Below are positions 4,335-59,599 of a DNA stretch of 64,000 nt, piece after piece (within the stretch, counting starts at the first letter, position 1; each line of letters opens with the position of its first letter). The stretch covers positions 2,823,001-2,887,000 of the forward strand of contig NZ_CP107902.1 of assembly GCF_036013935.1 (NCBI RefSeq). Direction: 5' to 3'. Both the position numbers and the translations under genes were made by a program. This DNA is from Streptomyces sp. NBC_00461 (GTDB lineage Bacteria; Actinomycetota; Actinomycetes; Streptomycetales; Streptomycetaceae). The notes beneath the pieces were generated by a model. That model did no database searches. It saw only the letters and a program-made list of their open reading frames with translations, and was not told where the DNA came from.

Positions 4335-4597
4335 GTGACGTCCAAGAGGAGTTCGGCCGCCTGCAGTTGGGCCACCACCGCCGAGACGTCACGGTGGGCG
4401 TGCGCCAGGACGATCCGGTGCCGCTCGACCAGCGCATGCGCGGCGCGCTCGTCCGACTGGTCGTCGAGCAGGCTGTGGAGTACGAGCACACCGGTGCGGT
4501 TGAGCTGCCAGTAGCGGCCGGTGCGTTGGTGGAGAAGGACGGCGCCGTCGTCGGTTTCGGCCATCACCACGTCGGGGTGCAGACGCATGGGCATCAT
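4331..4597 (-). CDS. Lasso peptide RRE protein (B1, PqqD-like)
   Basis: An 88-residue PqqD-family RiPP recognition element that binds the leader peptide and presents the precursor to the B2 protease and the cyclase. Family features are the N-terminal strand LHPDVVMAETDDGAVLLHQRTGRYWQLNRTG and the following helices. It overlaps the cyclase stop codon upstream by 4 bp and the protease start downstream by 4 bp, so C, B1 and B2 are one translationally coupled unit. Split B1/B2 genes are typical of actinobacterial lasso loci. Confidence 0.88.
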   Translation of the reverse strand: MMPMRLHPDVVMAETDDGAVLLHQRTGRYWQLNRTGVLVLHSLLDDQSDERAAHALVERHRIVLAHAHRDVSAVVAQLQAAELLLDVT

Positions 4598-9269: not shown

Positions 9270-9271
9270 CG

Positions 9272-12320: not shown

Positions 12321-12370
12321 GATGATGCTCCGTTCCATCTCGAACAGGGCGCCCAGGATGGAGGAACGGG

Positions 12371-33266: not shown

Positions 33267-36200
33267 TCACTGCTGTTCCAGTTGTTCCTGATGGGCCGCC
33301 GCGAGCTGTGCGTCGGACATGTTCTCGATCTCGGCCTGGATCGCCTCCTCCACCGCCTGGGCGAGTTCGGCGACGGTCGGCCCGGCGAAGACGGTGCGCA
33401 CCGGAAGGTCGACGTCGAACTCGTCCTGGATGCGGGCGATCAGCCGCACCGCGGCCAGCGAATTCCCGCCGGCGGCGAAGAAGTTCGTATGCGCTCCGGG
33501 GTCGACGCCCAGCAGCGCCGAGAAGATCGTCGCGACGCGGATCTGCGCCGGACCGGTGGGAGTGTCGCCGTGCGCGAGAGCGGCGTCGTCGACCCGGATC
33601 CGCGGCAGCGCCGACCGGTCGACCTTTCCGTTGCGGTTGAGCGGGATCAGCTCGATCGCCGCGAACGCCACCGGAACCATGTAGTCGGGCAGCCGCCGTT
33701 CGGTGTGGGCGGTGAGTTCGGAGCCCGTGACCTCCGCGCCCGCCGGCACGTAGTAGGCGTGCAGCCGGACGTCGCCCGACTCGGGGCCCTGGGACGTGTC
33801 GGATCCGGTGGCCGCGGCGACCACCACGGCGTCGCGGACGCCGGGGTGCTCACGCAGTACGGCCTCGATCTCGCCGGTCTCCACCCGGTAGCCGCGCACT
33901 TTGAGCTGGCCGTCCATCCGGCCGAGGAACATCACGTCGCCGGTGGGCCCGAACCTGGCCAGGTCCCCGGTGCGGTAGAGGCGTTCGCCCGGCGCGCCGT
34001 AGGGATCGGGCACGAACCGTGCCGCCGTCCTGGCCGGATCGCCCGTGTACCCGTCGGCGACGCCGGCGCCGCCGACGCACAGTTCACCGGGCGACCCGAT
34101 CGGTACGCGGTTCAACGCGTCGTCGAGCACGTGCACGGTGACGCCCGGAAGCGGTCTGCCCAGCGGCACGATCCGCTGTACCGGCTCGCCGGCCACCGGA
34201 TGGATCGTCGAGCCGACCGATCCCTCGGTGGGGCCGTACTCGTTGATCAGCCTTCCGTCGCCGAGCAGCCGGCGCCAGTGCTCGGCCTGGCGCGCCGGCA
34301 GTGCCTCGCCGGCGACGACGATCACCGAGGCGAGACTGGCCGCGGCGGCGTCGCCGAGCTGGTGGGCGAGGAGTTCGAGGTGGCCCGGGGTGAGCTTGAT
34401 GAAGCTGAACGGACCCGTCTCGGCCAGCACTCGGCCGAGTTCGGCAACCGGAAGGTCACGCGGAGCCATGTGCACCGGCTGCCCGGCGAGCAGCGGCGCG
34501 TACAGGTTGGGCACCACCAGGTCGAACGCGGTCGAGGAGAAGACCGGCGCACCGGTCGTCCCCTGCGAGGCGAGATCGCGGACGGCCCACTGCAGATGGT
34601 TCGCCAGCCCCCGGTGCGGCACTCGCACGCCCTTGGGCCTGCCGGTGGAACCGGAGGTGTAGATGACGTAGGCGGTGTCCTGCGGCGTGGCGTGCGGGCC
34701 GACCGGATCTCCCGGCCGGTTCTCGACGCGTTCGCGGTGCAGATCCACCATGACCAGTTCACCGTCGAAGGCCTCGGGCAGCATGGTGCGGTAGCACGAT
34801 TCGCTGATCAGCACCTTTGCTCGCGCGTCGGTGAGCATGTGCCCGATGCGTTCCGCCGGGAAGAGCGGGTCGATCGGCACGTAGGCGGCGCCCGCCTTCC
34901 ACACCCCGAGCAGTACGGCGTGCAGATCGAGCCCGCGTCCGACCAGGACACCCACCGCGTCGCCGCGGCACACACCGAGGTCCTTCAGCAGTCCGGCGAA
35001 CTGGTTCGCCTTCACGTCCAGTTCGCGATAGCTCATCGCCGTGCCCGAGTACGTCACCGCCGGCGCGTCCGGGGTCTTCGCCGCCTGCCGCTCGAAGAGC
35101 GCGAGCGTCGTCTCGGGGCCGAATGCGGCGTCCCTACGATTCCACGCGTCGAATTGCCCGTGTTCGGTCTCCGACAGCAGATCGACTTCGCGCAACGGCA
35201 GTTCGGGGCGGGCCGCGAGGCGGCCGAGCAGCAGACGGAACTGTTCGGCCAGCGCCTCGACCGTGTCGCGGTCGAACAGCGCGGTGGCGTATTCGAAGCC
35301 GAAGGCGTACGAACCGTCGGGTCTGCGGCGTGCGAAGACGGTCAGATCCGTCTTCGCCACCCGCCACGCCTCGCGCATCGCCGCCAGGTCGTCCGAACTG
35401 GACATGCCGCCGGTGAGTTCCTGGTCGTGCAGGTCGAACGCGACCTGGTACAGCGGAGTTCGGGACATGTCCCGCTCGCCGCCGTAGGCGTCGACGAGGC
35501 GGTCGAACGGCACGTCCTGGTGGGCCAGGGCGAAGCGCCTGGCCTCGTCGACCCGCCGCACCGACCGCTCGAAGTCCTCCTCGGGACGCAGCCGGGGACG
35601 CACGACCAGGGAATTGAGGAAGAAGCCGACGACGTCCTGGGTCTCCGGGCGCAGCCTGCCCGCGGTCGGCGTGCCGACGGCCACGTCCCACTGTCCGGTC
35701 CGCCGTGCCAGCAACGCGGTGAGCCCGGTCAGCAGCACGGCGAACGGCGTGGCACCGCACCGGCGGCCGATCCGCGTCAGTTCTTCGGCGGTCTCGGCGG
35801 GCACGTCGAAGGTGACCAGGGCGCCGGCCTCGTCGCGGACCTGCGGGCGCGGGCGGTCCGTGGGCAGTACGAGCGGTTCGAGGTCCGCCAGTGTGTCCCG
35901 CCAGGCGGCGACCCCGCGCTCGGTGCGGGCGTCGGTGTGCCATTGCCGCTGCCAGTGCGCGTAGTCGGCGTACTGGACAGGTGGCGGCGTCGGCTCGTCT
36001 CTGGCGAGAAGGGCGTGGAAGTCCCGTTCCAGGATGACCGCCGACCAGCCGTCGCAGGCGATGTGGTGCAGGGTCAGCAACAGCAGGTCGTTCCCGCGGC
36101 CGTCCGCGGAGCGCACCAGCAGCGCCCGCCAGACCGGACCGGCGGCCAGGTCGAAGCCGCGGGCGATCTCGGCGTTCACCTCTCCGACCGGGTTCGAGCT

Positions 36201-38243
36201 CTCGCTGGTGCGCAGTTCGACCGGGGTGGACGGATCGATGATCTGCAGCGGCTCGCCGTCCTCCTGCGCGTACCGGGTACGCAGGATCTCGTGGCGCTCG
36301 GCGAGCCGGCCGAGCGCCCCTCGGACCTGCCCCGGGTCGGCCCTGCCGTGGAGGCGGACGAACAGCGGAACGGTGTATTCGCCGCTTCCCGGGCGCAGTT
36401 GGTCCAGGAACCACATGCGCCGCTGTCCGAAGGACAACGGGAGCCGGCCGTCACGGGGCGCGCGGGCGATCGGCGGCGGCTCCTCGCGACCGGGACCGTC
36501 GGCCGGCGGTGCCACCAGCAGCGCCTGGTCCGCGACGGTCGTGTGGGTGTAGAGATCCTGGAGACCCACGTCCGTTCCCGTCGCCCGGGTCAGCCGCCCC
36601 GCGAGCCGGGTGAGCAGCAGCGAGTAGCCGCCCAGCTGGAAGAAGTCGTCGTCGGCTCCGACCTTCTCCACACCGAGCAGTTCCTGCCAGACCTCGGCGA
36701 CCGCGAGTTCGGCGTCGGTGCGGGGTGCGAGGTAGGCCGGGCGCGAGGCGAGCACGGACTCCATGCTCGACAGCGCCGATCTGTCGATCTTCCCGTTGGA
36801 CAGCAGCGGGAAGCTGTCGACCGGGGTCAGCACCGAGGGGATCATCGGCGCGGGCAGGCGCTCGCGCAGGAAGGAGCGCAAGGCCGCCGGAGCGACGTCG
36901 CCGACGACATACGCCGTCAGCCGTGCCGCTCCGTCGGATCCGGCCGCCGTGCCGACGACCGCGGCCGTGACCTGGGGATGCGCGGCGATCGCCGTCTCGA
37001 CCTCGCCCGGCTCGATGCGGACGCCGCCGACCTTCACCTGCTGGTCGAGGCGACCCAGGTATTCCAGGTTGCCGTCCTCGCGCCACCGGACCCGGTCGCC
37101 GGTGCGGTAGAGCCGGCCGCCGGCCGGTCCGTAGGGATCGGGGACGAAGCGCTGCGCGGTCAGGTCCGGGCGGCCCTCATAGCCGCGGGCCTGCGCCGCG
37201 CCTCCCACATACAGCTCGCCGGGCACGCCGACCGGGCACGGCTCGCCACCCGGGTCGAGAACCAGCAGGCGTACGCCGGTCACCGGCCGCCCGATGGGAG
37301 CCGGCCCGGACGACACGTCCCGGTCGCACGGGTGTGCGGCGACGTCGATGGTGCACTCGGTCGGCCCGTAGGTGTTGTACACCTGCGCCGTGGCGGGCAC
37401 GGCGGTCAGGTACTCGGCGTGCAGCGCCTCGCCGCCGGAGGTCAGCAGCCTGAGGCTGTGGCAGCGCGACCAGCCGGGTTCGTCGGCCAGCAGCCGCAGA
37501 ATCGAGGGCACGACCTGCAGCACGCTCACCTCGGCGTCGAGGACCGCCCTGACGATCTCGGCCGGGTCGCGTTCGGCTCCCGGCGGGGCGATCACCAAGG
37601 TGGCGCCGCAGGCCTGCGGGGCGAAGATCTCCCAGCCGGCCGCGTCGAACCCCACCGGCGTGCGTTGCAGCACCCGGTCGCCGGGGCCGAGGCCGTGGGT
37701 CCTGACCCGCCAGTCGACGTAGCCGGCGATCCCCTCGTGCGTGATGACGACGCCCTTGGGGTGCCCGGTCGACCCGGACGTGTACAGCACGTAGGCGGCG
37801 TTCGCGGGATCCGGCACCGGACGGACGACGTCCGACGGCCGTGCCGCGACCGGCGGTTCGTCGGCCGCACCGACCAGCAGGGTGGGCACCGCGTCGGCCG
37901 GCAGGACGCCGGCGTGCGCGTCGTCGGTCAGGACGACGCGCACGCCGGCGTCGGCGACGATCCACCTGGTCCGCTCGGCGGGATGGGCCGGGTCGAGCGG
38001 AACGTAGGCCGCCGCCGCCCGCCACACGCCGAGGAGCGCCACGACGAGATCCAGACCGCGCGGCATCAGTACGCCGACCCGGTCCTCCGGGCCGAGGCCG
38101 CGGGCGCGCAACGTGTCGGCCACCCGGTCCGCCGCGGCGACAAGCTCCCCGTAGGTGAGCGACCGGTCGCCGTCGACCACGGCGACCGCCGCCGGGGTGC
38201 GAGCCGCCTGATCGACGATCCGGGCAGGCAGCAGCGGGCTCAA
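33267..38243 (-). CDS. NRPS A, bimodular starter: A-T-C-A-T
   Basis: About 1,658 residues. It begins at a TTG (38243) that overlaps the MbtH stop (TTGA); upstream in-frame sequence is MbtH antiframe, not protein-like. Approximate landmarks: A1 GFDAAGW 198; T1 LGGYS 538; C HHIACDG 726 (canonical); A2 AFDLVVP 1239; T2 GGNS 1593. Codes I extracted: A1 DAWQTGTIDK (Gln-like, not an exact known code) and A2 DLPKVAEVGK (Asn-like, compare DLTKLGEVGK). There is no N-terminal condensation domain, so acyl transfer to the first residue must come from another protein or not happen. The C-terminal tail after T2 (QEQLEQQ) looks like a docking segment for NRPS B, which starts 5 bp downstream. Confidence 0.93.
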   Translation of the reverse strand: MSPLLPARIVDQAARTPAAVAVVDGDRSLTYGELVAAADRVADTLRARGLGPEDRVGVLMPRGLDLVVALLGVWRAAAAYVPLDPAHPAERTRWIVADAGVRVVLTDDAHAGVLPADAVPTLLVGAADEPPVAARPSDVVRPVPDPANAAYVLYTSGSTGHPKGVVITHEGIAGYVDWRVRTHGLGPGDRVLQRTPVGFDAAGWEIFAPQACGATLVIAPPGAERDPAEIVRAVLDAEVSVLQVVPSILRLLADEPGWSRCHSLRLLTSGGEALHAEYLTAVPATAQVYNTYGPTECTIDVAAHPCDRDVSSGPAPIGRPVTGVRLLVLDPGGEPCPVGVPGELYVGGAAQARGYEGRPDLTAQRFVPDPYGPAGGRLYRTGDRVRWREDGNLEYLGRLDQQVKVGGVRIEPGEVETAIAAHPQVTAAVVGTAAGSDGAARLTAYVVGDVAPAALRSFLRERLPAPMIPSVLTPVDSFPLLSNGKIDRSALSSMESVLASRPAYLAPRTDAELAVAEVWQELLGVEKVGADDDFFQLGGYSLLLTRLAGRLTRATGTDVGLQDLYTHTTVADQALLVAPPADGPGREEPPPIARAPRDGRLPLSFGQRRMWFLDQLRPGSGEYTVPLFVRLHGRADPGQVRGALGRLAERHEILRTRYAQEDGEPLQIIDPSTPVELRTSESSNPVGEVNAEIARGFDLAAGPVWRALLVRSADGRGNDLLLLTLHHIACDGWSAVILERDFHALLARDEPTPPPVQYADYAHWQRQWHTDARTERGVAAWRDTLADLEPLVLPTDRPRPQVRDEAGALVTFDVPAETAEELTRIGRRCGATPFAVLLTGLTALLARRTGQWDVAVGTPTAGRLRPETQDVVGFFLNSLVVRPRLRPEEDFERSVRRVDEARRFALAHQDVPFDRLVDAYGGERDMSRTPLYQVAFDLHDQELTGGMSSSDDLAAMREAWRVAKTDLTVFARRRPDGSYAFGFEYATALFDRDTVEALAEQFRLLLGRLAARPELPLREVDLLSETEHGQFDAWNRRDAAFGPETTLALFERQAAKTPDAPAVTYSGTAMSYRELDVKANQFAGLLKDLGVCRGDAVGVLVGRGLDLHAVLLGVWKAGAAYVPIDPLFPAERIGHMLTDARAKVLISESCYRTMLPEAFDGELVMVDLHRERVENRPGDPVGPHATPQDTAYVIYTSGSTGRPKGVRVPHRGLANHLQWAVRDLASQGTTGAPVFSSTAFDLVVPNLYAPLLAGQPVHMAPRDLPVAELGRVLAETGPFSFIKLTPGHLELLAHQLGDAAAASLASVIVVAGEALPARQAEHWRRLLGDGRLINEYGPTEGSVGSTIHPVAGEPVQRIVPLGRPLPGVTVHVLDDALNRVPIGSPGELCVGGAGVADGYTGDPARTAARFVPDPYGAPGERLYRTGDLARFGPTGDVMFLGRMDGQLKVRGYRVETGEIEAVLREHPGVRDAVVVAAATGSDTSQGPESGDVRLHAYYVPAGAEVTGSELTAHTERRLPDYMVPVAFAAIELIPLNRNGKVDRSALPRIRVDDAALAHGDTPTGPAQIRVATIFSALLGVDPGAHTNFFAAGGNSLAAVRLIARIQDEFDVDLPVRTVFAGPTVAELAQAVEEAIQAEIENMSDAQLAAAHQEQLEQQ

Positions 38244-38455
38244 CTGAACTGCCCCATGCGTCGGCGAAGGCTGGCCGGGCGCATGTCCGTCCACACTTCG
38301 GCGATGTGCGCCAGGCACGCGTCCTCGGTGCCCTGGAAGCCTTCCGCGTGCCATCCGGCCGGAAGCTCACGTCCGAGCCACCAGATGGAGTGCTGGTCCT
38401 CGTCGTTGCGCACCACCAGATGGGTCGGCGCCGCCTGTTCCGTCTGCTCTGTCAC
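38240..38455 (-). CDS. MbtH-like protein
   Basis: A 71-residue MbtH chaperone that activates and stabilises NRPS adenylation domains. The family pattern is complete: NDEDQHSIW, LPAGWHAEGF, ACLAHIAEVWTDMRP and SLRRRM. The start is GTG at 38455 with GAGGGGAAC upstream. It is the first gene of the NRPS operon and overlaps NRPS A by 4 bp. It would serve the six A domains encoded here. Confidence 0.95.
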   Translation of the reverse strand: MTEQTEQAAPTHLVVRNDEDQHSIWWLGRELPAGWHAEGFQGTEDACLAHIAEVWTDMRPASLRRRMGQFS

Positions 38456-38498: not shown

Positions 38499-38514
38499 CT
38501 ATATCGGACCTATA
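38499..38514 (-). promoter_or_regulatory. Direct-repeat operator/promoter element, copy 3 (TATAG-GTCCGA-TATAG)
   Basis: This is a perfect TATAG pair with an 11-bp period, read on the minus strand, 43 bp upstream of the MbtH GTG. It heads the operon MbtH-NRPS A-NRPS B-MFS. The distal pentamer includes the TAG stop codon of the upstream acyl-CoA dehydrogenase, so the element is squeezed into the gene junction. It is the third copy in the cluster and one of the two with both pentamers intact. Confidence 0.6.
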
Positions 38515-39670
38515 CCGAATCAGGACGGTGCAGCAGATCGTCGGCAATGATGCCGCGCATAATCTCTGACGTGCCGCCGTAAAGCCGGGTCACCCGGGTG
38601 TCGGTGTAGAGGCGGGCGATCGGGAATTCGGTGACGAACCCGTAGCCGCCGTGCAACTGCAGGCATTGGTCGATCACTTGGCCGGCGGTCTCGGAGGCGA
38701 ACAGTTTGCAGGCGGCCGCGTCGACCGCGGTCAGCTCGCCCGCGTCGAACAGGTCGAGCGCCTTATCGGTCATCGCCTGCATGGCGCGTACTCGTGCCGT
38801 GCAGTCGGCGAGCACGAATTTGGTGTTCTGAAAAGTGGAGACGGCCCGGCCGAACGCCTTGCGCTCCTTGACGTAGGCGACGGTGTGGCGGACCGCCGCG
38901 GCTGCCTGCGCCGTCGCCCCCAGCGCGATCGTCATCCGTTCCTCGGCGAGGTTGTGCACCAGGTACTTGAAGCCCTGGCCCGCCTCACCGAGCAGGTTGG
39001 CCGCGGGTACCCGCACCTCGTCGAAGAACAACTCGACCGTGTCCTGGGCGTGCAGTCCGATCTTCTCCAGCCGCCGGCCCACCGTGAACCCGGGCGAGTG
39101 GGCGTCGACGCACAGGATCGACAGGCCGCGCCGTTCGTCCCCGGGTATGCGCACCACCACCAGCACCAGATCCGCCTGGGCGCCGCCTGAGATGAACGTC
39201 TTGGATCCGCGCAGCACGTAGTGCTTGCCGTCCTCGGACAGCGTCGCGGTGGTGGTGATCCCGGCGAGGTCGGAACCGGCTCCCGGTTCGGTCATCGCGA
39301 TGGCGGTCATCATCTCGCCGCTGATGAACGGCGGTAGCCAGCGCTCCTTCTGCTCGTCGTCGGCGAAGGTCATCAGGTACGGGAGCACCAGGTTGAAGTG
39401 GATCGGGGCGGCGCCCAGACCGACGCCGGCCCTGGTGGTCTCCTCGATGAGGATCGCGTTGTACTTGTAGCTGTGCTCTCCCGCGCCGCCGTACGCGACG
39501 GGGGCGCGGATGCCGAACACACCCAGCTCGCCGAGCCGCCGGTAGAGCCGGCGCGGAACCTGGCCGGTCCGTTCCCATTCCTGGTGGTGCGGCACGACCT
39601 CCGCCTGCAGGAAGTCGCGGATCACGCGCCGGAACGCCTCGTGGTCTGCGTCATAGACAGTGCGCCGCAT
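38510..39670 (-). CDS. Acyl-CoA dehydrogenase family flavoenzyme
   Basis: A 386-residue FAD-dependent acyl-thioester dehydrogenase that introduces an alpha,beta double bond. Signatures are AMTEPGAGSDLAGI (substrate/FAD region), the CLQLHGGYGFVTEFPIARLYTD stretch and the catalytic Glu in RLYGGTSEIMR. It is last in the operon with the acyl-AMP ligase, R2-like oxidase and GMC oxidoreductase, so desaturation of the lipid chain on its carrier is most likely. Comparable enzymes unsaturate fatty acids in other lipopeptide clusters. The alternative is oxidation of a ureidoalanine residue, as proposed for VioJ in the viomycin pathway. Confidence 0.9.
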   Translation of the reverse strand: MRRTVYDADHEAFRRVIRDFLQAEVVPHHQEWERTGQVPRRLYRRLGELGVFGIRAPVAYGGAGEHSYKYNAILIEETTRAGVGLGAAPIHFNLVLPYLMTFADDEQKERWLPPFISGEMMTAIAMTEPGAGSDLAGITTTATLSEDGKHYVLRGSKTFISGGAQADLVLVVVRIPGDERRGLSILCVDAHSPGFTVGRRLEKIGLHAQDTVELFFDEVRVPAANLLGEAGQGFKYLVHNLAEERMTIALGATAQAAAAVRHTVAYVKERKAFGRAVSTFQNTKFVLADCTARVRAMQAMTDKALDLFDAGELTAVDAAACKLFASETAGQVIDQCLQLHGGYGFVTEFPIARLYTDTRVTRLYGGTSEIMRGIIADDLLHRPDSV

Positions 39671-39673
39671 GGG

Positions 39674-41221
39674 TCAGCCCTTTCGCTCGGCCGCGATCAG
39701 TTCCGCGGCGCGCTCACCGATGAGCATCGACGGCGCGGCGGTGTGTCCGCGCACGATCTCCGGCATGACCGAGGCGTCCGCCACCCGCAGGCCGCGGAGG
39801 CCGCGCACCCGGAGCCGTTCGTCCACGACGGACGCCGGGTCGGTTCCCATCCGGCATGTTCCGGTCGGGTGGTAGAGCGACTGCGCCGCCTGGACGGCGG
39901 CGTGACGGCGGTCCGGGCCGGGGGGCAGCGCCGGTTGTACGGGGGCGCCGGCCTCCGAGGCGAGGGGCTCGGTGGCGAGCACCTCCTCCGCGATGCGCAG
40001 CCCGGCGTCCAGGACTCGCCGGTCCTCCGGATCGCTCAGATATCCCGGATCGATCAGCGGCCGGGACAGCGGATCCGCGTCGCGCAGCGCGATCTCGCCG
40101 CGGCTTCGCGGCTGGAGCAGCACCACGGCGAGGGTGAACCCGGCGGACTGCGACCGAGTGCGCCCCTCGTCGACGAACTGCCCGGTCAGCAGCACCAGTT
40201 CGATGTCCGGGTGCGGCAGCGCCGGGTCGCTGCGCACGAACGCGTACGCCTCGCCGAGGTTGGAGGTGAGCGGACCGCGGCCGTTCGCGCGGAACTGCGT
40301 GAACGCCCCCGGAGCACGGCGCGGATCGGGGCCGGGCTCCGCCGCCTCGACCAGCAGCATCGCGGCCAGGTGGTCGCGCAGGTTGCGCCCGACCTCCGGC
40401 GCGTCGGCGACCAACTCGATCCCGTGGTCGCGCAGTCGGTCGGCGGGCCCGATCCCGGACAGCATCAGCAGTCTCGGCGAATCGACGGCCCCCGCGCACA
40501 GGATGACCTCGCGGCGGGCCGTCACCGTGACCGGCCGGCCGTCGACGGAGTACCGGACCCCTTCGGCCCGCCCGTCGACGATCTCCACCTTGTGTACGGC
40601 CGCTCCGTGGCGCACGACGAGGTTGGGCCGGTGCGCGGCGGGCCGCAGATATCCGTCCGCCGTACTGCGCCGTCGCCCGCCGGCTTGCATCACCATGGTG
40701 GGCCGGGCGCCGTCGGACGCCGAGCCGTTCTCGTCGGCGGCGAGGGGAATCCCGGCCTTGCCGCAGGCGTCGAGGAACGCCGAGGTCACCGGGGCCGGAT
40801 CGGGCAGCGCCGCGACGCGCATCGGGGCGCCGTCGTCGCAGCCGATCCGGGACAGCACGGGGCGGACCGCCGCGTAGGACCAGAGCGGGCCGGCGAGTTC
40901 GCCCCAGCGGTCGTAGTCGGCTCGCTGGCCGGGGACCCACATCATCGCGTTGATCGACGACGAGCCGCCGAGGGTCCTGCCGTGCGGCCAGTACACCCGC
41001 CGTCCGGCCAGCCGCTGCTGCGGGGCGGTCTCGTCGGCCCAGTCGACGGCGCTGCCGAACAAGCCGGGGAACAGGGCGGGGACAGCGATCGAGGGCAGGT
41101 CGTCGGCCGGTCCCGCCTCAAGCACCAGCACGGTCGTGTCCGGGTCCTCGCTGAGCCGGGCGGCCAGCGGTGCGCCCGCCGCCCCGGCGCCGACGACGAC
41201 GTAGTCGTACGCCTCGTTCAC
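39674..41221 (-). CDS. GMC-family FAD oxidoreductase
   Basis: A 515-residue glucose-methanol-choline oxidoreductase that oxidises an alcohol to an aldehyde or ketone. Features are the N-terminal dinucleotide site VVVGAGAAGAPLAARL with the Glu of LVLEAGP, GRTLGGSSSIN (GMC signature 1), GAVDSPRLLMLSGIGP (signature 2) and the C-terminal YHPTGTCRMG with the catalytic His. The start overlaps the R2-like oxidase stop by 4 bp. In this operon it may oxidise a hydroxyl on the fatty acyl chain made by one of the di-metal enzymes. The substrate is inferred. Confidence 0.9.
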   Translation of the reverse strand: MNEAYDYVVVGAGAAGAPLAARLSEDPDTTVLVLEAGPADDLPSIAVPALFPGLFGSAVDWADETAPQQRLAGRRVYWPHGRTLGGSSSINAMMWVPGQRADYDRWGELAGPLWSYAAVRPVLSRIGCDDGAPMRVAALPDPAPVTSAFLDACGKAGIPLAADENGSASDGARPTMVMQAGGRRRSTADGYLRPAAHRPNLVVRHGAAVHKVEIVDGRAEGVRYSVDGRPVTVTARREVILCAGAVDSPRLLMLSGIGPADRLRDHGIELVADAPEVGRNLRDHLAAMLLVEAAEPGPDPRRAPGAFTQFRANGRGPLTSNLGEAYAFVRSDPALPHPDIELVLLTGQFVDEGRTRSQSAGFTLAVVLLQPRSRGEIALRDADPLSRPLIDPGYLSDPEDRRVLDAGLRIAEEVLATEPLASEAGAPVQPALPPGPDRRHAAVQAAQSLYHPTGTCRMGTDPASVVDERLRVRGLRGLRVADASVMPEIVRGHTAAPSMLIGERAAELIAAERKG

Positions 41222-42180
41222 CGCGGCGTACTCGCCTTGCGGCGGTCCTCGTCGGCGAACTCTTCCTCAAGCCGCTCTGCCACGACGTCACGCTCGACCT
41301 CGCCCGCGGACTCGTTCAGCGCCGAGGAGATCGCCCGCAGGCGTCGGCGCGGACGGCTGCTCGCGTACAGCAGGATCTCCTTGACCTCGATGTCGAACAG
41401 GTCCGCGGGATAGGACTTGGCGGCGAAGTCGATCTGCCGCAGCGCGTGCGGTATCAGCTCCCGCATGGTGCTCTGGGCGACGTTCCAGTTCTCCGGATCG
41501 GCGGCGACGTGCCGGCGGCAGGTGTACGTGCCCCACGCCATGTGCCGCCGCTCGTCGTCGCCGATCAGTTCCACGACCCTGCGCATGCCCGGGAAGATCC
41601 CGAGTGAGGTGCAGAACCGGTTCCAGGTGTAGTAGCCGGTGAGCGCGAGCGTCCCCTCGACGAGGTGGTTGTACGTGATCGAGGCGCGCACCTGGTTGGC
41701 CGGGCTCGGATCGTGGTGCAGTTTCTCCAGCGCCTCCGGCAGGGCGATGCCAAAGATCTCCTGGTAGCCGGGGTTGCCGGTCACCAACTCGTTGAGATCG
41801 TCGTGCAGTCCCACGGCGTCCATCCACCGGCGGAAGACCTCGACGTGCTTGGCCTCTTCGAAGCAGAACTGCGCCAGGTACATCTCGTCACCCAGCCGTC
41901 CCTCGGACGCGACGGCGGACATGAACGGCTGGATGTCCCGGGTGACCGCCTCCTCGCCCGCCACGAACTGGGCGCACATGACCGCCACGGCCTCCTGGGC
42001 CTGCGGGGACAGTGCCGCGAAATCCTCGGCGTCGCGGGTGAAGTCGAGGTCCGCCGGATTCCAGAACCTGCGGTTGCCCTTCGCGAACAGCCGCATGGGC
42101 AGCATGTCCCAGTCGATGCCGCCCGCGTTCAACGACGCGTAACCGGTGCGCCGGGCTGGTGAGTCGGGTTGGTTCGTCAT
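41218..42180 (-). CDS. R2-like ligand-binding oxidase (R2lox, Mn/Fe)
   Basis: A 320-residue ferritin-like di-metal protein of the R2lox type. All six metal ligands are present: Glu76, Glu109, His112, Glu175, Glu210, His213 (in GEEAVT, FEEAKHVEVF, NHLVEG, DDERRHMAWG). The residue pair that forms the characteristic Tyr-Val ether cross-link is also conserved: Val79 three residues after the first Glu, and Tyr170 five before Glu175, as in the Geobacillus enzyme. It is not a ribonucleotide reductase: no R1 partner is nearby, and the residues match R2lox. R2lox proteins assemble a Mn/Fe site and bind long-chain fatty acids, which fits this lipid-modifying operon. The physiological reaction of the family is unknown. 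Confidence 0.9.
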   Translation of the reverse strand: MTNQPDSPARRTGYASLNAGGIDWDMLPMRLFAKGNRRFWNPADLDFTRDAEDFAALSPQAQEAVAVMCAQFVAGEEAVTRDIQPFMSAVASEGRLGDEMYLAQFCFEEAKHVEVFRRWMDAVGLHDDLNELVTGNPGYQEIFGIALPEALEKLHHDPSPANQVRASITYNHLVEGTLALTGYYTWNRFCTSLGIFPGMRRVVELIGDDERRHMAWGTYTCRRHVAADPENWNVAQSTMRELIPHALRQIDFAAKSYPADLFDIEVKEILLYASSRPRRRLRAISSALNESAGEVERDVVAERLEEEFADEDRRKASTPR

Positions 42181-42211
42181 GGTTCGTTCCTTTCCGAAGT
42201 GCCGGCCTCGC

Positions 42212-44011
42212 TCAGAGGAGGTCCAGCTGCTTGGCGAGATATCGGCTCCGGCATTCGGCGCGCTTGATCTTGGCGCTGCTGGTGTAGGGCAGTGAACCGG
42301 CCGCCAGCAGCACCACCTCGTCCACGCGCACTCCCTGCGCGGACGCGACGGCAGCGGCGACCGCCGTCTCGATCTCGGCGGCGTCCACGGGCCGGCGCAC
42401 CGAGTCCTGCACGGTCTGCGCCCCCCGCACCACCTGGTGCCGGCGCTGCACCTCCGTCAGCACGACCAGCCGCTCCCGGCTGCCGTCGTCGACCGAGAAG
42501 GCACAGCACCGGTCCTCGCGCAACGCCGGATGGGCTCCGTGCAGCGCGGCCTCGATGTCGTGCGGGTAGTAGTTGAGCCCGTTGAGGATGATCGCGTCCT
42601 TGCGCCGGCCGGTGACGAACACCTGGCCGTCGTGGACGAATCCGAGGTCGCCGGTGGCCAGGAAGCGGAGCCCGGGTGCTTCGGCCAGTTCGATGCCGAA
42701 CGTCTCGGCGGTCTGCCGCGGCGCGTTCCAGTAACCCTCGCTGACGCTGGGTCCGGCGATGTAGATCTCGCCGACCTCGTCCGCGGCGCACACGCGGCGG
42801 GTCAGCGGAGCGACGATGCGCAGGCACAGGGTGTCCTGGATCTGCCCGCACCCCACCAGCGCCTGGACGCCGGCGACACCGCGGCGGCCGGCGACCGGGA
42901 CCACCCGGCCCGCGGCCAGTCGCTCGGCGTCGAAAGTGGCGATGACCGGGTCGCGCAGTGCGGGACCGCCGCTGACCATCACCGTCGACTCGGCCAGCCC
43001 GTAGCAGGGGAAGAACGCGGAGCTGCGGAACCCGGCGGCGGCGAACTTGGCGCTGAACGCCTCCAGCGTCTCCGGCCGCACCGGCTCGGCGCCCACGCCC
43101 GCCAACTCCCAGCCGGAAAGGTCGAGTTCGGCGACCTGCTCCTCGGGCACCCGGCGCACGGCAAGCTCGTAGGCGAAGTTCGGCGCGACACTCACCGCCC
43201 TGCCGCGGTCCGAGACGGCGCGCAACCAGCTGACGGGACGCTGCACGAAGGCCATCGGCGACATGTGCACGGCCTCGTAGTCGCGGTACAGCGGCGACAG
43301 AACTCCGTTGACCAGACCCATGTCGTGGAAGAAGGGGAGGAACAGCACGTTGGGCGGGGGGCGTTCACCGGCGCGCAGCTCGCCTCGATAGGCGTTGGCC
43401 CGGATGAGTTCCAGGTTGTTCAGCACGTTGCGATGGGTGAGGGTCACGCCCTTGGGCACACCCGTCGACCCGGACGAGTACTGCAGATACGCGACCGAGC
43501 CCGGCTCGATCTCCGGAGGGCTCCACTTTTCCGCCAGTTCCCGTGCGTCCTCGCCGAGAACCGTGTCCGAGGCGAGGCAGACCACGTCGGCCAGCGACGC
43601 GACGGCCCGGCCCCCGTCCAGCCGCGTGAGCGCGGACTGCGTGGTCAGGAGCACCCTGGGCTCGGCGCTGCCGCAGACCGCGTCCACCTTGTCGGTCTTC
43701 GGTCCGGTGCGGCCGATCTCAACGGGCGGTATCGGTACGGCGATCAGGCCGGCGTACAGGCAGCCGAAGAATCCGACGATGAACTCGAGGCCGGGCGGAT
43801 ACGCCAGCAGAACCCGGTCGCCGGGATCGGCATGCCGCAACAGCAGCACCGCCAGTGCCCTGGCGCCGCGGTCCACCGCCTCGGCGGTCAGCGACGCGCC
43901 GACGGTGCGCCCGTCGGGAAGATAGGTGAAGTACACGCGCTCGGGATCCTCGGCGGCTCTCGACGCGCACATGTCGACCAGGGTCGGCCATCGCCCGGAT
44001 TCCAATGGCAT
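42212..44011 (-). CDS. Fatty acyl-AMP ligase (FAAL)
   Basis: About 599 residues, an ANL-superfamily enzyme that activates a fatty acid as acyl-AMP and passes it to a carrier protein. Motifs are LQYSSGSTGVPKGVTLTH (ATP loop), LPFFHDMGLVNGV (typical of FAALs), CYGLAESTV and LATGDLGFVHDGQVFVTGRRKD. The ATG at 44011 is chosen because AAAGGAG lies 9 bp upstream, inside the longer GTG-started frame. The C-terminal ASSAKIKRAECR replaces the usual catalytic-Lys tail and may be slightly short. The likely partner is the ACP at 46351. It heads the FAAL-R2lox-GMC-dehydrogenase operon. Confidence 0.9.
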   Translation of the reverse strand: MPLESGRWPTLVDMCASRAAEDPERVYFTYLPDGRTVGASLTAEAVDRGARALAVLLLRHADPGDRVLLAYPPGLEFIVGFFGCLYAGLIAVPIPPVEIGRTGPKTDKVDAVCGSAEPRVLLTTQSALTRLDGGRAVASLADVVCLASDTVLGEDARELAEKWSPPEIEPGSVAYLQYSSGSTGVPKGVTLTHRNVLNNLELIRANAYRGELRAGERPPPNVLFLPFFHDMGLVNGVLSPLYRDYEAVHMSPMAFVQRPVSWLRAVSDRGRAVSVAPNFAYELAVRRVPEEQVAELDLSGWELAGVGAEPVRPETLEAFSAKFAAAGFRSSAFFPCYGLAESTVMVSGGPALRDPVIATFDAERLAAGRVVPVAGRRGVAGVQALVGCGQIQDTLCLRIVAPLTRRVCAADEVGEIYIAGPSVSEGYWNAPRQTAETFGIELAEAPGLRFLATGDLGFVHDGQVFVTGRRKDAIILNGLNYYPHDIEAALHGAHPALREDRCCAFSVDDGSRERLVVLTEVQRRHQVVRGAQTVQDSVRRPVDAAEIETAVAAAVASAQGVRVDEVVLLAAGSLPYTSSAKIKRAECRSRYLAKQLDLL

Positions 44012-44171
44012 GCTGCTGCGCTCCTTTGACACCAGATGTGTGCTCAGCCTCCTGGTGTTCGCGGCGCCCTCACAACCGCCTCCCGGCGGCCCCGATCTCC
44101 TCCTTTGGTAGGGGGGAATCCCGCCCGATCGCCGGTGCCGACGCGCACCGTCACGTCGTTACCGTCGCGGC
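44012..44171. promoter_or_regulatory. Divergent promoter region between the FAAL and KAS II operons
   Basis: These 160 bp separate the minus-strand FAAL operon from the plus-strand KAS II-desaturase-ACP-NRAMP operon, so both promoters must lie here. I looked for the TATAG-N6-TATAG repeat found elsewhere in the cluster and did not see it. This lipid block may therefore use a different activator site. No other clear motif stands out. Confidence 0.45.
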
Positions 44172-45392
44172 GTGACGAGGAGCGAAGAACAGCAGGTCGT
44201 GATCACCGGTCTCGGCATGACCACTCCCCTCGGCGGCGATGTGCCCGGCACCTGGCGGGCGCTGCTGGCCGGCGAGAGCGGCGCCGCACGGCTGACCGAG
44301 CCGTGGGCCCAGGAGCTGGCCGCGCCGATTGCGGCCAGGGTGAAGGTGGAACCCGCCGAGGTCCTGGAACGGGTCAAGGTCCGCAGGCTGGACCGCAGTC
44401 AACAGCTCGCCCTGATCGCCGCGCGCGAGGCGTGGGCCGATGCCGGGTCTCCGGAGGTCGATCCGTACCGTCTCGCCGTCGTCATGGGCACCGGAATCGG
44501 CGGACCGCTGACCGTGCTCGGCCATGACGCGGTGATCAGCAGCCGCGGACCGCAGTCGGTCAGCCCGTTCTCCGTGCCGATGCAGATGGCCAGCGGCGCG
44601 GCGGCGACGATCGGTATCGAGCTGACCGCACGGGCCGGTGTCCACACCCCGGTGAGCGCCTGCGCCTCGGGTGCCGAGGCGATCGCCACCGGTCTCGCGC
44701 TGATCAGATCCGGCCGCGCCGACGCGGTGCTCGCCGGCGGGTCCGACGCCTTCATCCACCGGCTCGGCCTGACCGCCTTCGATCAGATGCGGGCCCTGTC
44801 CCGGCGGATCGACGATCCGGAGGGCGCGTTGCGCCCGTTCGACTCCGACCGGGACGGCTTCGTTCTCGCCGAGGGTGCCGGTGCCATGCTGCTGGAGACG
44901 GAGGAGCACGCCCGGGCGCGTGGCGCGCGGGTGCACGCCCGGCTTGCCGGTGCCGGACTGACCTCGGACGGGCGGGACATGACCGCGCCGGACCCGGCCG
45001 GTCAGATCAGGGCACTGCGCGGCGCCATGGAACAGGCGCGGCTGCGCGCCGCCGACGTGGTGCACGTCAACGCGCACGCCACCGGCACCTCGGCCGGCGA
45101 CATCGCCGAGGCGAGCGCCCTCGTGGACGGAGTCGGCGGCCACGTCCTGGTCAGCGCGACCAAGGCGGGCACCGGGCACATGATCGGCGGCTCCGGCGCC
45201 GTCGAGGCCGTCTTCACCGCGCTGTCGGTCCGCGACGACGTGCTCCCGCCGACCCGCAACCTGCACCGTCAGGACCCGCAGATCAAGCTCGACGTGGTCA
45301 CCACGGCGCTGCACACCCGGGTCGACGCCGCGCTGTCCAATTCGTTCGGGTTCGGCGGTCACAACGTCGTGCTCGCCTTCGTCAAACCGTGA
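44172..45392 (+). CDS. Beta-ketoacyl-ACP synthase II (KAS II/FabF-like)
   Basis: A 406-residue elongating ketosynthase. The catalytic residues are Cys164 (VSACASGAEA), His302 (VNAHATGTSAGD) and His336 (KAGTGHMIGG). It starts at GTG 44172 with only a weak ribosome site. Together with the FabH at 10363 and the ACP at 46351 it would extend a dedicated acyl chain; reductases and dehydratase would come from primary metabolism. It starts the plus-strand lipid operon and its stop overlaps an alternative GTG of the desaturase. Confidence 0.92.
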   Translation: MTRSEEQQVVITGLGMTTPLGGDVPGTWRALLAGESGAARLTEPWAQELAAPIAARVKVEPAEVLERVKVRRLDRSQQLALIAAREAWADAGSPEVDPYRLAVVMGTGIGGPLTVLGHDAVISSRGPQSVSPFSVPMQMASGAAATIGIELTARAGVHTPVSACASGAEAIATGLALIRSGRADAVLAGGSDAFIHRLGLTAFDQMRALSRRIDDPEGALRPFDSDRDGFVLAEGAGAMLLETEEHARARGARVHARLAGAGLTSDGRDMTAPDPAGQIRALRGAMEQARLRAADVVHVNAHATGTSAGDIAEASALVDGVGGHVLVSATKAGTGHMIGGSGAVEAVFTALSVRDDVLPPTRNLHRQDPQIKLDVVTTALHTRVDAALSNSFGFGGHNVVLAFVKP

Positions 45393-45421
45393 ATCGGCGA
45401 ACAACGAAAAGGGAAGCACCC

Positions 45422-46354
45422 GTGACACAACTCGATTTGCTCGCCGAGCTGGAGCCGGTGGTCGAGAAGAACCTCAACCGCCATCTGGCAACGGCCAAGG
45501 AGTGGTTCCCCCACGAGTACGTGCCCTGGTCCGAGGGGCGTGACTTCGACACCGAGCCGTGGGAGCCGGGCCAGTCGCGCCTGACGCCCGAGGCGCAGGC
45601 GGCGTTGGAGATCAATCTGCTCACCGAGGACAACCTGCCCTCCTACCACCACATCATCGCCGAGCGGTTCGGCCTGGACGGACCGTGGGGCACCTGGGTG
45701 CACCGGTGGACCGCGGAGGAAGGCAGGCACGGACAGGCGCTGCGCGACTACCTGCTGGTGACCCGGGGCGTCGATCCGATCGGCCTGGAGCGCACCCGGA
45801 TGGCCGCGGTCGGGATCGGCTATCCGGGCCGCGGAGACGATCCGCTCAGCTCCGTCGTCTACGTCACCTTCCAGGAGCTGGCCACCCGCGTCGCGCACCG
45901 CAACGCCGGCCGCGCCTGCGGCGATCCGATCGCGGACCGGCTGCTGGCGAGGATCGCCGTCGACGAGAACCTGCACATGGTGTTCTACCGCACCCTGGTG
46001 GAGACCGCGCTGGACCTCGACCCGTCGGCGACGGTCATCGCCGTGGAACGGATCCTGCGCGAGTTCGCCATGCCAGGACGCGGCATTCCCGGCTTCGCCC
46101 GGCGCAGCCTGACCGTGGCCAGATCAGGGATTTTCAATCTGCGGACCCACCACGACGAGGTCGCCGCGCCGTTGCTGCGTTACCTGAAGGTCCTGGACAC
46201 CGGCGGTCTCGACGCGCAGGCCGGCGCCGCACAGGAGCGGCTCGGTGAGTTCATGGCCGATTTGGACCGGGCGGCCGCCCGGCAGAGCGAACAGATCGAG
46301 GCGGCGAACGCGAGAGACCGTGCCGCCCGCCCCACCACAAGGAGGACATCATGA
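45422..46354 (+). CDS. Soluble acyl-ACP desaturase (di-iron)
   Basis: A 310-residue protein of the stearoyl-ACP desaturase (DesA-type) family that uses O2 to desaturate, or otherwise oxidise, an ACP-bound acyl chain. The complete di-iron ligand set is visible: Glu69, Glu100, His103 (TAEEGRHGQ), Glu152, Glu182, His185 (DENLHMVF). The GTG at 45422 is preferred because AAGGGAAG lies upstream; a GTG at 45389 overlaps the KAS II stop. It overlaps the ACP gene by 4 bp, which suggests that ACP is the substrate carrier. It is the second ferritin-like oxidase in the cluster after R2lox. Confidence 0.9.
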   Translation: MTQLDLLAELEPVVEKNLNRHLATAKEWFPHEYVPWSEGRDFDTEPWEPGQSRLTPEAQAALEINLLTEDNLPSYHHIIAERFGLDGPWGTWVHRWTAEEGRHGQALRDYLLVTRGVDPIGLERTRMAAVGIGYPGRGDDPLSSVVYVTFQELATRVAHRNAGRACGDPIADRLLARIAVDENLHMVFYRTLVETALDLDPSATVIAVERILREFAMPGRGIPGFARRSLTVARSGIFNLRTHHDEVAAPLLRYLKVLDTGGLDAQAGAAQERLGEFMADLDRAAARQSEQIEAANARDRAARPTTRRTS

Positions 46355-46620
46355 CCATACCCGCCGAGCAGGCCAAGCCCCTGACCAGGGAGGAAGCCAC
46401 GACGAAGGTCACGGAGATCTTCGAGCTGATCGCCGCGATCCCGGCGACCGACCTCACTCCGGACCGAGGACTCGTCGATGACCTGGGAATCGACTCGCTG
46501 ACGATGATGGAAATCGCCGTCACGATCCAGGACGAGCTGCAGGTCTCCGTCTCCGACGACAAGATCAAGGACCTGCGCACGGTCGGCGACATCATCGATC
46601 TGGTCGCCACGGCGACGTGA
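46351..46620 (+). CDS. Acyl carrier protein
   Basis: An 89-residue ACP with the phosphopantetheine serine at Ser49 in DDLGIDSLTMMEI. It overlaps the desaturase stop (4 bp) and the NRAMP start (4 bp). It should receive the acyl group from FAAL or the KAS enzymes, present it for desaturation and hand it to the first condensation event. The acidic helix II after Ser is typical of fatty-acid ACPs and unlike the PCP at 17346. Confidence 0.94.
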   Translation: MTIPAEQAKPLTREEATTKVTEIFELIAAIPATDLTPDRGLVDDLGIDSLTMMEIAVTIQDELQVSVSDDKIKDLRTVGDIIDLVATAT

Positions 46621-47858
46621 CGCGCCTCCTTTCCCCGCCGCGCCCTCCCGGCCGCTCCCGGCGCCTCGTGCAGCCGGCGGCCGGGAGGGCCGCGTCGCTC
46701 GTCGGCCCGGCCGCGGTGGCCGGCATGGCCTATGTGGATCCGGGCAACTTCGCGGCGAGCGCCGCCGCCGGGGCCGGGGTCGGATACGCGCTGATGTGGG
46801 CGGCGCTCACCGCGAGCGTCGCCGCGGCGTTCGTGCAGTACCTCGCGGCCAAACTCGGCGCCGTCAGCGGCGCGGGTCTGTCCCAGCTCTGCCGGGAGCG
46901 GCTACGGCCGGCCGCGGTGTGGCCGCTGTGGCTGCAGGCCGAGTTGGTGTGCGCCGCCACCGACCTGGCCGAGGTCGCCGGTACGGCCACCGCCCTGAAC
47001 ATGCTCACCGGCATGCCGCTGCTCGCCGGCGGGCTGCTCGCCGGTGCGGTCGGTTTCCTGATCATGGCTGCGACGCCGGGTGGCCGGCGCGGGGTGGAAC
47101 GGGTGATGGCCACGGCGCTGACGACGGTGTTCGTCTGCTTCGCCGCCGTCGTCACCGTCGTACGTCCGTCGGTCCACGGGGCCGCGGCCGGACTCGCTCC
47201 GCAGCTGCCCGCCGGCGACGGCGCCGCCTTGATGGCCGGCCTGGTCGGCGCGACGATCATGCCTCATGTGATCTATCTGCACTCGGCGTTGGCCGCGCGG
47301 ACGCCCCGCGTCGACGTCGACGCGGGGGTCAGGGCGCACCGGCTGAACGTGACGACCGCGATGACCGTCGCCGGCATCGTCAACCTCTCGATGCTCGCCA
47401 TCTTCGCCGGCGTCCTGCACGGACGCGCCGACGCCTCGGTGACGATGGAGCAGACGCATCACATCCTGTCGGCGCAGAGCCCCACGGCCGCGCTGATCCT
47501 GGCCCTGGCGCTGCTCGTGGCCGGACTCGCCTCGACCGGAGTCGGCGTCTACGCGGGCCAGGAGGTGATGCGCGGCTTCCTGCGCCGTTCGCCTCCCGCG
47601 ACGGTACGCCGTCTGGTGACACTCGTCCCGGCGCTGATTCTGCTGAGCGCAGGGGTCAGCCCCACCCGGGCGCTGGTGTTGTCTCAGATCGTGCTCTCGT
47701 TCGGAGTCCCGTTCGGCCTGGCACCGTTGATCTGGCTCTCACGCCGCGAGGACGTGATGGGCGAACGCCGGGCCGGCGTCTGGACGACGGCGGTGGCGAC
47801 GGCACTGTCCTGCGCCTTGGTCACGTTGAACGTGTGGACCGTCGTGGAAGCCGTATGA
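46617..47858 (+). CDS. mntH: NRAMP-family Mn2+/Fe2+ transporter
   Basis: A 413-residue membrane protein with about 11 hydrophobic segments. The two metal-binding motifs of NRAMP importers are present: DPGN (YVDPGNFAASAAAG, TM1) and the TM6 motif MPH (GATIMPHVIYLHSAL). It uses a GTG start overlapping the ACP stop and is therefore co-translated with the lipid genes. This is an unusual partner for a biosynthetic operon. The obvious explanation is supply of Mn and Fe to R2lox and the di-iron desaturase. Its 3' end overlaps the convergent response-regulator gene by about 175 bp. Confidence 0.88.
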   Translation: MTRLLSPPRPPGRSRRLVQPAAGRAASLVGPAAVAGMAYVDPGNFAASAAAGAGVGYALMWAALTASVAAAFVQYLAAKLGAVSGAGLSQLCRERLRPAAVWPLWLQAELVCAATDLAEVAGTATALNMLTGMPLLAGGLLAGAVGFLIMAATPGGRRGVERVMATALTTVFVCFAAVVTVVRPSVHGAAAGLAPQLPAGDGAALMAGLVGATIMPHVIYLHSALAARTPRVDVDAGVRAHRLNVTTAMTVAGIVNLSMLAIFAGVLHGRADASVTMEQTHHILSAQSPTAALILALALLVAGLASTGVGVYAGQEVMRGFLRRSPPATVRRLVTLVPALILLSAGVSPTRALVLSQIVLSFGVPFGLAPLIWLSRREDVMGERRAGVWTTAVATALSCALVTLNVWTVVEAV

Positions 47859-56461: not shown

Positions 56462-56632
56462 CAGTCTTCCATTTCTACGGGCACCACCGTATGGGGACCG
56501 GAAGCCGGTCGGCCCACGGTCCCTGAGGGCACTGCGACGAGCCGCCTACTTCGTTGAATCGGTTGACGGTCACCTGAAGACGCTGCTGGAATCACTCTCC
56601 GTACATATGCCTGGGTGGGGAGTGGAACGAAC

Positions 56633-59493: not shown

Positions 59494-59551
59494 AGCAGCG
59501 CAGCGGCAGACGAAGGCAACGCCGGCTGCTTCCTCTCGGGAACAGTGAGTC

Positions 59552-59597
59552 GCGTTCGGGGTGCCTCCAGGCGAACGCCGGGGGGCACCCCGAACGC
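59552..59597. terminator. Bidirectional terminator-like hairpin between CBS gene and pglZ
   Basis: Perfect 14-bp arms GCGTTCGGGGTGCC (59552-59565) and its complement (59584-59597) flank an 18-base loop. They are placed exactly between the convergent CBS and pglZ stop codons. It probably ends both transcripts. It also marks the right border of the inserted gene pair. Confidence 0.75.
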
Positions 59598-59599
59598 TG

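Follow-up and report, generated by a model that had tools for sequence, protein, structure and literature searches.

Introduction

R2-like ligand-binding oxidases (R2lox) are known chiefly through structures and spectroscopy, and ideas on their substrate go back to lipids that copurify with the protein and to a single study on lysate. Assembly of the Mn/Fe centre, binding of fatty acids and an ether cross-link are already published for the family (PMC6399176 and PMC4118035), a role as a desaturase has been proposed (PMC4118035), and alkane monooxygenase activity was reported for GkR2loxI in 2024 (PMC10867098). The alkane evidence came from lysate, and a double mutant of the metal ligands kept most of the activity and lost only part of it, so the reaction of the family is unsettled. 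Here, an R2lox gene was analysed in a 64,000-nucleotide stretch of Streptomyces sp. NBC_00461 (contig NZ_CP107902.1, positions 2,823,001 to 2,887,000; hereafter the window), whose genome is one contig of 10.37 Mb. The gene was found in a biosynthetic cluster started by a fatty acyl-AMP ligase (FAAL), within a set of lipid genes that recurs in a second, unrelated cluster type and that includes an NRAMP metal transporter. The reading that we favour, with somewhat better than even confidence, is that this set is a lipid-starter module in which R2lox oxidises the acyl chain and the NRAMP protein supplies its metals.

The window protein shares with MtR2lox, GkR2loxI and SeR2lox the six metal ligands, the Val/Tyr pair and a conserved Ala (E values down to 1e-123). 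It differs in its setting, a FAAL-started biosynthetic cluster with a GMC oxidoreductase, a desaturase and an NRAMP gene, whereas most examined relatives lie elsewhere. Lipopeptide starter systems of the daptomycin DptE/DptF type likewise use a FAAL and an acyl carrier protein (ACP) to put a fatty acid on a non-ribosomal peptide synthetase (NRPS), but the window adds a cluster-own ketosynthase (KS), a soluble desaturase, R2lox, GMC and a metal importer. The R2 subunit of class Ic ribonucleotide reductase (RNR) is a Mn/Fe ferritin-like protein as well, but it makes a radical for R1 and has Phe in place of both the tunnel Ala and the cross-link Tyr. GkR2loxI, from the same family, represents aliphatic-chain oxidation beside alcohol-oxidation genes; the Geobacillus gene, unlike that of the window, sits in a fatty-acid/alkane locus that is catabolic, with alcohol and aldehyde dehydrogenases (PMC10867098), whereas FAAL, carrier protein and GMC in the window point to biosynthesis.

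The locus thus shows a known family in a new setting. A search of the open-licence PMC literature found no paper joining R2lox with a biosynthetic gene cluster, none joining FAAL, ribonucleotide reductase, desaturase, Streptomyces and gene cluster, and no earlier report or product of this cluster type. Titles and abstract beginnings in the same literature held nothing on the reaction of Rv0233 and nothing relevant on NRAMP in manganese-linked Streptomyces clusters.

An R2lox gene among probable acyl-starter genes

The genes of the proposed module are arranged around one divergent promoter region:

39674-41221, minus strand: GMC flavin oxidoreductase, alcohol oxidase type, overlapping R2lox by 4 bp
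41218-42180, minus strand: R2lox, 320 aa (phmmer, NCBIfam, alignment)
42212-44032, minus strand: FAAL with AMP-binding and DIP2-like C-terminal domains (Pfam and homologue)
44033-44171, no strand: divergent promoter region of 139 bp that separates the FAAL operon from the KS operon, conserved in parts in the related clusters G083 and G019
44172-45392, plus strand: FabF-type ketosynthase (KS II; family match), catalytic motif SACASG at 162
45389-46354, plus strand: soluble acyl-ACP desaturase (PF03405, FA_desaturase_2) with di-iron motifs EEGRH and DENLH, in a cluster-specific clade
46351-46620, plus strand: ACP (family match)
46617-47858, plus strand: NRAMP-family metal importer with DPGN (41) and MPH (215), nearest solved relative 8e5s (MntH)

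The window protein is a genuine R2lox by its residues and profile scores. It matched 7qbp and 3ee4 in phmmer (E = 1.1e-123 and 4.6e-111) and scored 490.2 bits against the NCBIfam R2lox equivalog NF006199 (cut-off 286). The six ligands E76, E109, H112, E175, E210 and H213 were identical in all 20 aligned actinobacterial R2lox sequences (six from clusters and 14 others), as were the cross-link pair V79/Y170 and the tunnel residue A179. The ligands and Val79/Tyr170 named in the original prediction were therefore all found. At A179 the two aligned RNR R2 proteins have Phe, which sets the window protein apart from class I RNR R2; the significance of the Val/Tyr pair and of the Ala replacing the RNR Phe is taken from PMC6399176. 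Y183, the equivalent of the cavity tyrosine, was retained. The accompanying statements on a Mn/Fe centre and fatty-acid binding agree with the literature, whereas the 2024 report on GkR2loxI makes "no known physiological substrate" partly out of date.

The predicted operon structure also held. FAAL lies 31 bp upstream of R2lox on the same strand, and across the promoter KS, desaturase, ACP and NRAMP follow one another on the plus strand, each sharing 4 bp with the next, so that NRAMP is coupled to the ACP and desaturase genes as proposed. The ACP/NRAMP overlap was conserved in both G083 and G019, and the KS/desaturase overlap was conserved in G083 but absent in G019. The FAAL assignment rests on its AMP-binding and DIP2-like C-terminal domains, and a homologue with 96% identity is labelled fatty acyl-AMP ligase at its source; the best NCBIfam matches fell below their cut-offs (e.g. 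PRK05850, 431 vs 775). The desaturase scored 224.5 bits against PF03405, with its ExxH motifs EEGRH at 110 and DENLH at 192. The transporter reached 287.5 bits against Pfam Nramp (cut-off 29.8) and carries both family motifs. It fell short of the MntH and metal-ion Nramp models PRK00701 (351.6 vs 430) and TIGR01197 (233.4 vs 272.5), and the broad NF037982 was the sole NCBIfam Nramp model passed (157.4 vs 50); it is therefore called an Nramp-family transporter and not a certified MntH.

Within the promoter region, the stretch tcctttggtagggg at 44101-44114 is the same in G083 and G019 as in the window, while the sequence around it is less similar; it may be an operator. At the other end, NRAMP and an opposite-strand LuxR-type regulator gene overlap tail to tail by 175 bp (47684-47858), with a similar overlap in G083 and G019.

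The module recurs in two cluster types

Few genomes of the order encode R2lox (4 of 391 at E <= 1e-40); in the class it was found in 37 of 394 genomes (E <= 1e-80). The own genome is counted in both. Six R2lox loci of the order were examined, namely the window, G083, G019, S. harbinensis, S. radicis and S. tuirus, and FAAL, KS, desaturase, ACP, NRAMP, R2lox and GMC were present in all six. Further R2lox of the order are listed for S. xiamenensis and a Catenulispora metagenome-assembled genome, outside the six contexts compared.

The six loci represent two cluster types. The window, G083 and G019 carry the NRPS-type cluster, G083 from the same genus with about 91-98% protein identity and G019 from another family of the order with 71-86% until its contig end. 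S. harbinensis, S. radicis and S. tuirus carry a FAAL-polyketide synthase (PKS) cluster with FAAL, a two-module type I PKS, R2lox, thioesterase, phosphopantetheinyl transferase, GMC and GDSL genes, together with genes for a 3-hydroxyacyl-CoA dehydrogenase, ACP, acyl-CoA dehydrogenase and HAD protein that may be hydroxymalonyl-ACP-like. These families were assigned by Pfam on the S. harbinensis genes, and by tblastn in S. radicis and S. tuirus. In this type, KS-desaturase-ACP diverges from FAAL, and NRAMP lies further out, adjoining VTT and phosphotriesterase-like (PTE) genes (e.g. L078:5871-6851). No NRPS gene was found in about 60 kb per PKS-type locus, the sole trace being a 52-residue carrier-domain match in L006. 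Between the types, protein identity was 59-62% for FAAL, 59-61% for KS, 59-61% for desaturase, 61-62% for R2lox, 48-54% for GMC, 45-46% for ACP and 42-44% for NRAMP. Conservation at 71-86% in another family, together with retention of the set in the other cluster type, places the arrangement around R2lox beyond chance. From gene content, the element common to both types is a modified fatty-acyl starter, and the acyl starter is the likely common substrate because the PKS-type loci show no NRPS gene.

The inheritance of the individual genes was compared in trees. In the desaturase tree the cluster copies grouped together (100/99), separate from 28 further Streptomyces copies. Desaturase matches (E <= 1e-60) occurred in 373 of 392 Streptomyces, and among the best matches, judged by score and tree, the cluster type was recognised only in G000 and G035, both R2lox genomes. 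The cluster GMCs formed one seven-row clade (100/100) that included a further Catenulispora copy, and the cluster KSs formed two trios (100/100 each); a single origin of KS and GMC was neither rejected nor shown by the trees. For R2lox, only a larger 17-row clade (99/96) is claimed, as judged from a 55-row tree in which database proteins fall among the cluster sequences; an exclusive clade of the six, with an SH-aLRT value of 93 in a 67-row quick tree, was broken there and was dropped. The cluster NRAMPs grouped in 0% of 200 bootstrap trees, likewise with the NRAMP of the distant locus G674 added, and the approximately unbiased test of their grouping gave p = 0.0035 with 31 rows and 0.072 with 28 rows, one long row being omitted from the latter set. 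If the NRAMPs are indeed separate, two NRAMP lineages would have been recruited to, or swapped within, one module. A second GMC of G019 and a second KS of G000 were rejected as module leads, their regions being without other module genes.

R2lox neighbourhoods across the family

A family survey covered 102 R2lox loci (99 plus the window, G083 and G019), with organism duplicates possible between the two sources; most loci were viewed within 10 kb on either side or less and the clusters over longer stretches. A FAAL-like ligase (at least 35% identity) occurred in seven loci, the six clusters and G882, and NRAMP (at least 40% identity) also in seven, the six clusters and G674. To offset the unequal stretches, whole-genome searches were made in those 35 class-draw genomes that encode R2lox and belong to other orders. 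NRAMP was found in 20 of them (E <= 1e-50) and FAAL in 24 (E <= 1e-80, up to 37 candidates per genome being scored), and beside R2lox NRAMP stood only in G674 and FAAL only in G882. The next nearest to R2lox were a FAAL at about 42 kb (G793) and an NRAMP at about 180 kb (G890). Since such neighbours are rare family-wide, the module is a special use of R2lox and not its general setting. The proposed co-occurrence of R2lox, NRAMP and FAAL thus held in all six examined loci of the order but not in most of the family, where, in the stretches viewed, FAAL was missing from 95 of 102 loci and NRAMP from 95; the suggestion that this context reveals the reaction of the whole family is correspondingly weak, with one of the 35 genomes outside the order having FAAL adjoining and one NRAMP.

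In G674, TetR, R2lox and NRAMP genes lie on one strand, with a 4-bp R2lox/TetR overlap by our own gene calls, and a search of 14 kb around them gave no desaturase homologue. In G882 (L234:833-10491), R2lox lies directly upstream of a FAAL-PKS pair that resembles a mycolate condensation locus, the PKS being of KS-AT-DH-KR type with a thioesterase domain; a carboxyltransferase gene adjoins, and a PF00756 esterase is encoded nearby. We take this arrangement to be reminiscent of FadD32-Pks13-AccD4. The R2lox of both G674 and G882 fall outside the 17-row clade that contains the streptomycete clusters.

Around 13 other actinobacterial R2lox genes, TetR_N was the commonest neighbour family (8 of 94 proteins) and AMP-binding accounted for 2 of 94, among the best 25 of 136 families; the count took 94 of 106 proteins, with L011, L024 and one edge piece omitted. 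Eight Amycolatopsis R2lox loci had an adjoining AMP-ligase at 25-29% identity. At 9 of the 35 class-draw loci (L248-L263) a phosphotriesterase-like (lactonase-type) gene was no more than 10 kb away from R2lox; such neighbours could hint at lactones of hydroxy acids. The R2lox relative P0009 and the FAAL relative P0130 share the same longest contig figure (226390 bases), which hints at a further locus with both.

NRAMP genes beside other dinuclear oxidases

Strong Nramp matches (best E <= 1e-60) occurred in 61 of the 391 genomes of the order, in at least two sub-types, and all four R2lox genomes of that draw have NRAMP inside the cluster. As controls, a non-random sample of 38 further NRAMP loci was inspected. 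The first 18 comprised 17 of the 19 best-scoring non-cluster loci plus G255, chosen as sister to the window NRAMP, and four of them (G231, G290, G255 and G082) encode a protein of R2 or ARO type at a distance of up to 10 kb. The next 20 included the other two of the 19, and only five were of the same NRAMP type; no R2-type gene was found in their 273,629 bases, ARO not being searched for there. Among the 23 same-type loci, 4 thus had such a protein nearby, or 3 if G082 is set aside; the 15 loci of other types had none. Within 10 kb of the 23 loci, about 0.1 R2-type genes were expected and three were seen, a rough estimate on a non-random sample that assumes about two R2-type genes per genome (the own genome gave two) and 8.5 Mb each.

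In the Streptomyces G231 (L291:4868-10425), a class Ic-type nrdA-nrdB pair places its R2 gene 91 bp upstream of NRAMP; this R2 scored 455 bits to 4d8f and 1syy (Chlamydia R2) and 701 bits to 6y2n, and has Phe at the position where the G082 R2 has Tyr. G290 encodes an R2lox-like protein (28%) with six ligands and the Val/Tyr pair 2.3 kb from NRAMP. The Tyr-type R2 of G082, about 7 kb from NRAMP, is probably there by coincidence. In G255, phosphoenolpyruvate mutase, Rieske and amidohydrolase-type ARO proteins are encoded beside NRAMP, the ARO protein scoring 331-301 bits to 8sm7-8sm9, 229 to SfbO, and 205 and 183 to AibH. The G255 locus (L279:392-4205) is a Streptomyces phosphonate-type cluster, with an AMP-ligase and a small acidic carrier-like protein adjoining.

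Mn/Fe C-H hydroxylation has been reported for AibH1H2 and SfbO of the ARO family (PMC10401708 and PMC10811679). The likeness to R2lox lies in this chemistry and in the NRAMP adjoining the ARO-type relative in G255; the fold is another one and a Rieske partner is involved, and the G255 protein is closer to 8sm7-8sm9, which have been described with iron. Tentatively, and with clearly less than even confidence, an NRAMP gene beside a dinuclear oxidase may mark Mn dependence, such that actinomycetes would give R2lox, class Ic RNR and ARO proteins a private NRAMP and the module R2lox would be a Mn/Fe acyl-chain oxygenase. The iron described for the structures closest to the G255 ARO protein weakens this reading. 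The recurring neighbour suggests a predictor of Mn-using dinuclear oxidases, which are hard to tell from sequence alone; if true, NRAMP neighbours could be used to find more Mn/Fe oxygenases.

Proposed pathway and alternative readings

From the observed gene identities, order, conservation and co-inheritance, we infer a substrate, a reaction, an order of steps and a route of metal delivery. KS II and the desaturase would make an unsaturated acyl-ACP, FAAL would activate the fatty acid and transfer it to ACP, and a condensation domain, in the window perhaps the free-standing one, would pass the acyl chain to the NRPS. With O2, Mn/Fe-loaded R2lox would oxidise an unactivated C-H bond of the chain. 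Hydroxylation is the likeliest form of this step, and the GMC flavoenzyme coupled to R2lox may then turn the resulting alcohol into a carbonyl. A similar division of labour is known from AlkB and AlkJ in alkane oxidation. When the cluster is on, NRAMP would raise cellular Mn(II), and Fe(II), for the R2lox Mn/Fe centre. The acyl chain is the most likely R2lox substrate because two unrelated cluster types share an acyl starter, and hydroxylation followed by GMC oxidation is favoured because GMC is inherited with R2lox. Mn supply by NRAMP would fit the recurring neighbourhood. The original prediction that R2lox acts on the lipopeptide acyl chain with metals from NRAMP thus gains comparative support, from the module in two cluster types and the R2lox-NRAMP pair of G674, while the reaction, the product and the metal delivery stay conjectural.

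Several observations weigh against this reading. In the stretches viewed, FAAL is missing from 95 of the 102 R2lox loci, and NRAMP likewise from 95. The three PKS-type clusters have 18-22 kb between R2lox and NRAMP, so a joint R2lox/NRAMP operon is not general. The desaturase itself belongs to a di-iron family and is a possible client of NRAMP. A single KS clade was not shown, the union of the two trios appearing in 27% of bootstraps, and a separate NRAMP origin reaches only p = 0.072 in the 28-sequence set.

It is unlikely, but carries real weight, that NRAMP does not serve R2lox and brings iron to the desaturase, or acts in metal homeostasis or self-protection tied to a metal-chelating product. 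NRAMPs also carry Fe(II), NRAMP and the desaturase share an operon that excludes R2lox, and the PKS-type NRAMP adjoins VTT and PTE genes. Yet in G674 the NRAMP adjoins R2lox with no desaturase homologue in the 14 kb searched, and NRAMP also lies near class Ic R2, R2lox-like and ARO-type proteins in desaturase-free loci.

The main rival on the reaction is desaturation. R2lox would then be a second desaturase on the acyl chain, yielding a diene, an alkyne precursor or an allylic product and no alcohol. Such a role was proposed in PMC4118035, the cluster already desaturates the chain, and Y183 is retained; nevertheless, the co-inherited GMC, with its 4-bp overlap with R2lox, better fits an alcohol intermediate, and we regard desaturation as rather improbable.

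A peptide or other building block as the R2lox substrate is suggested by the special amino-acid genes of the window (SbnA/SbnB, carbamoyltransferase, VioC-like hydroxylase). This is quite improbable, since FAAL-PKS clusters retain R2lox with no NRPS in about 60 kb per locus, the peptide has its own TauD-type hydroxylase, and R2lox binds fatty acids (PMC6399176 and PMC4118035). That R2lox is a bystander caught in the cluster is hardly credible: most examined R2lox genes do belong to other settings, frequently with a TetR regulator close by, but the gene was retained in six of six clusters of two types while other genes changed, and it overlaps GMC by 4 bp.

In these culturable Streptomyces, R2lox belongs to a pathway that the host can do without and that yields a defined small product, and it does so in two chemically different clusters. 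Because the module recurs in a quite different cluster type, the R2lox reaction is now testable on a defined product.

Other features of the window

Further genes of the cluster, all on the minus strand, are:

4594-6408, minus strand: asparagine-synthase-like amidotransferase/cyclase (NCBIfam), with a 69% homologue in the S. tuirus PKS-type cluster
6731-7660, minus strand: carbamoyltransferase, ornithine/aspartate family (family match)
8265-10303, minus strand: SbnB and SbnA equivalogs for 2,3-diaminopropionate supply (NCBIfam)
11346-12338, minus strand: TauD-fold hydroxylase (in NCBIfam GntD, clavaminate synthase and VioC score highest, each below its cut-off)
15967-17349, minus strand: free-standing condensation domain, candidate lipo-initiation enzyme (domain match)
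19772-33262, minus strand: NRPS2, with four each of condensation (C), adenylation (A) and peptidyl carrier protein (PCP) domains plus a thioesterase (domain search)
33267-38354, minus strand: NRPS1, A-PCP-C-A-PCP, without an N-terminal condensation domain (domain search)
38240-38455, minus strand: MbtH-like protein (family match)
38510-39670, minus strand: acyl-CoA dehydrogenase-like flavoprotein (family match)

The asparagine-synthase-like protein lies near the ikarugamycin/albusnodin cyclases in NCBIfam (272.9 bits vs a cut-off of 300), and its S. tuirus homologue is at L081:14748-16550. An amidation route from R2lox over GMC to this enzyme was considered and set aside as outside the shared module. 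Three of the clusters, those of the window, G083 and S. tuirus, encode the enzyme or a homologue; S. harbinensis and G019 gave no match at E <= 1e-60, and the S. radicis match (49%) is on a different contig. In the S. tuirus record (L081, L082), MFS, PTE and ACAD are among the genes matching in at least two pieces, which suggests frameshifts in the assembly.

A BREX-like defence locus (52908-62506) adjoins the cluster and includes:

52908-55109: DEAD-box helicase
55106-56461: BrxC/D-family ATPase
59600-62506: PglZ-domain protein

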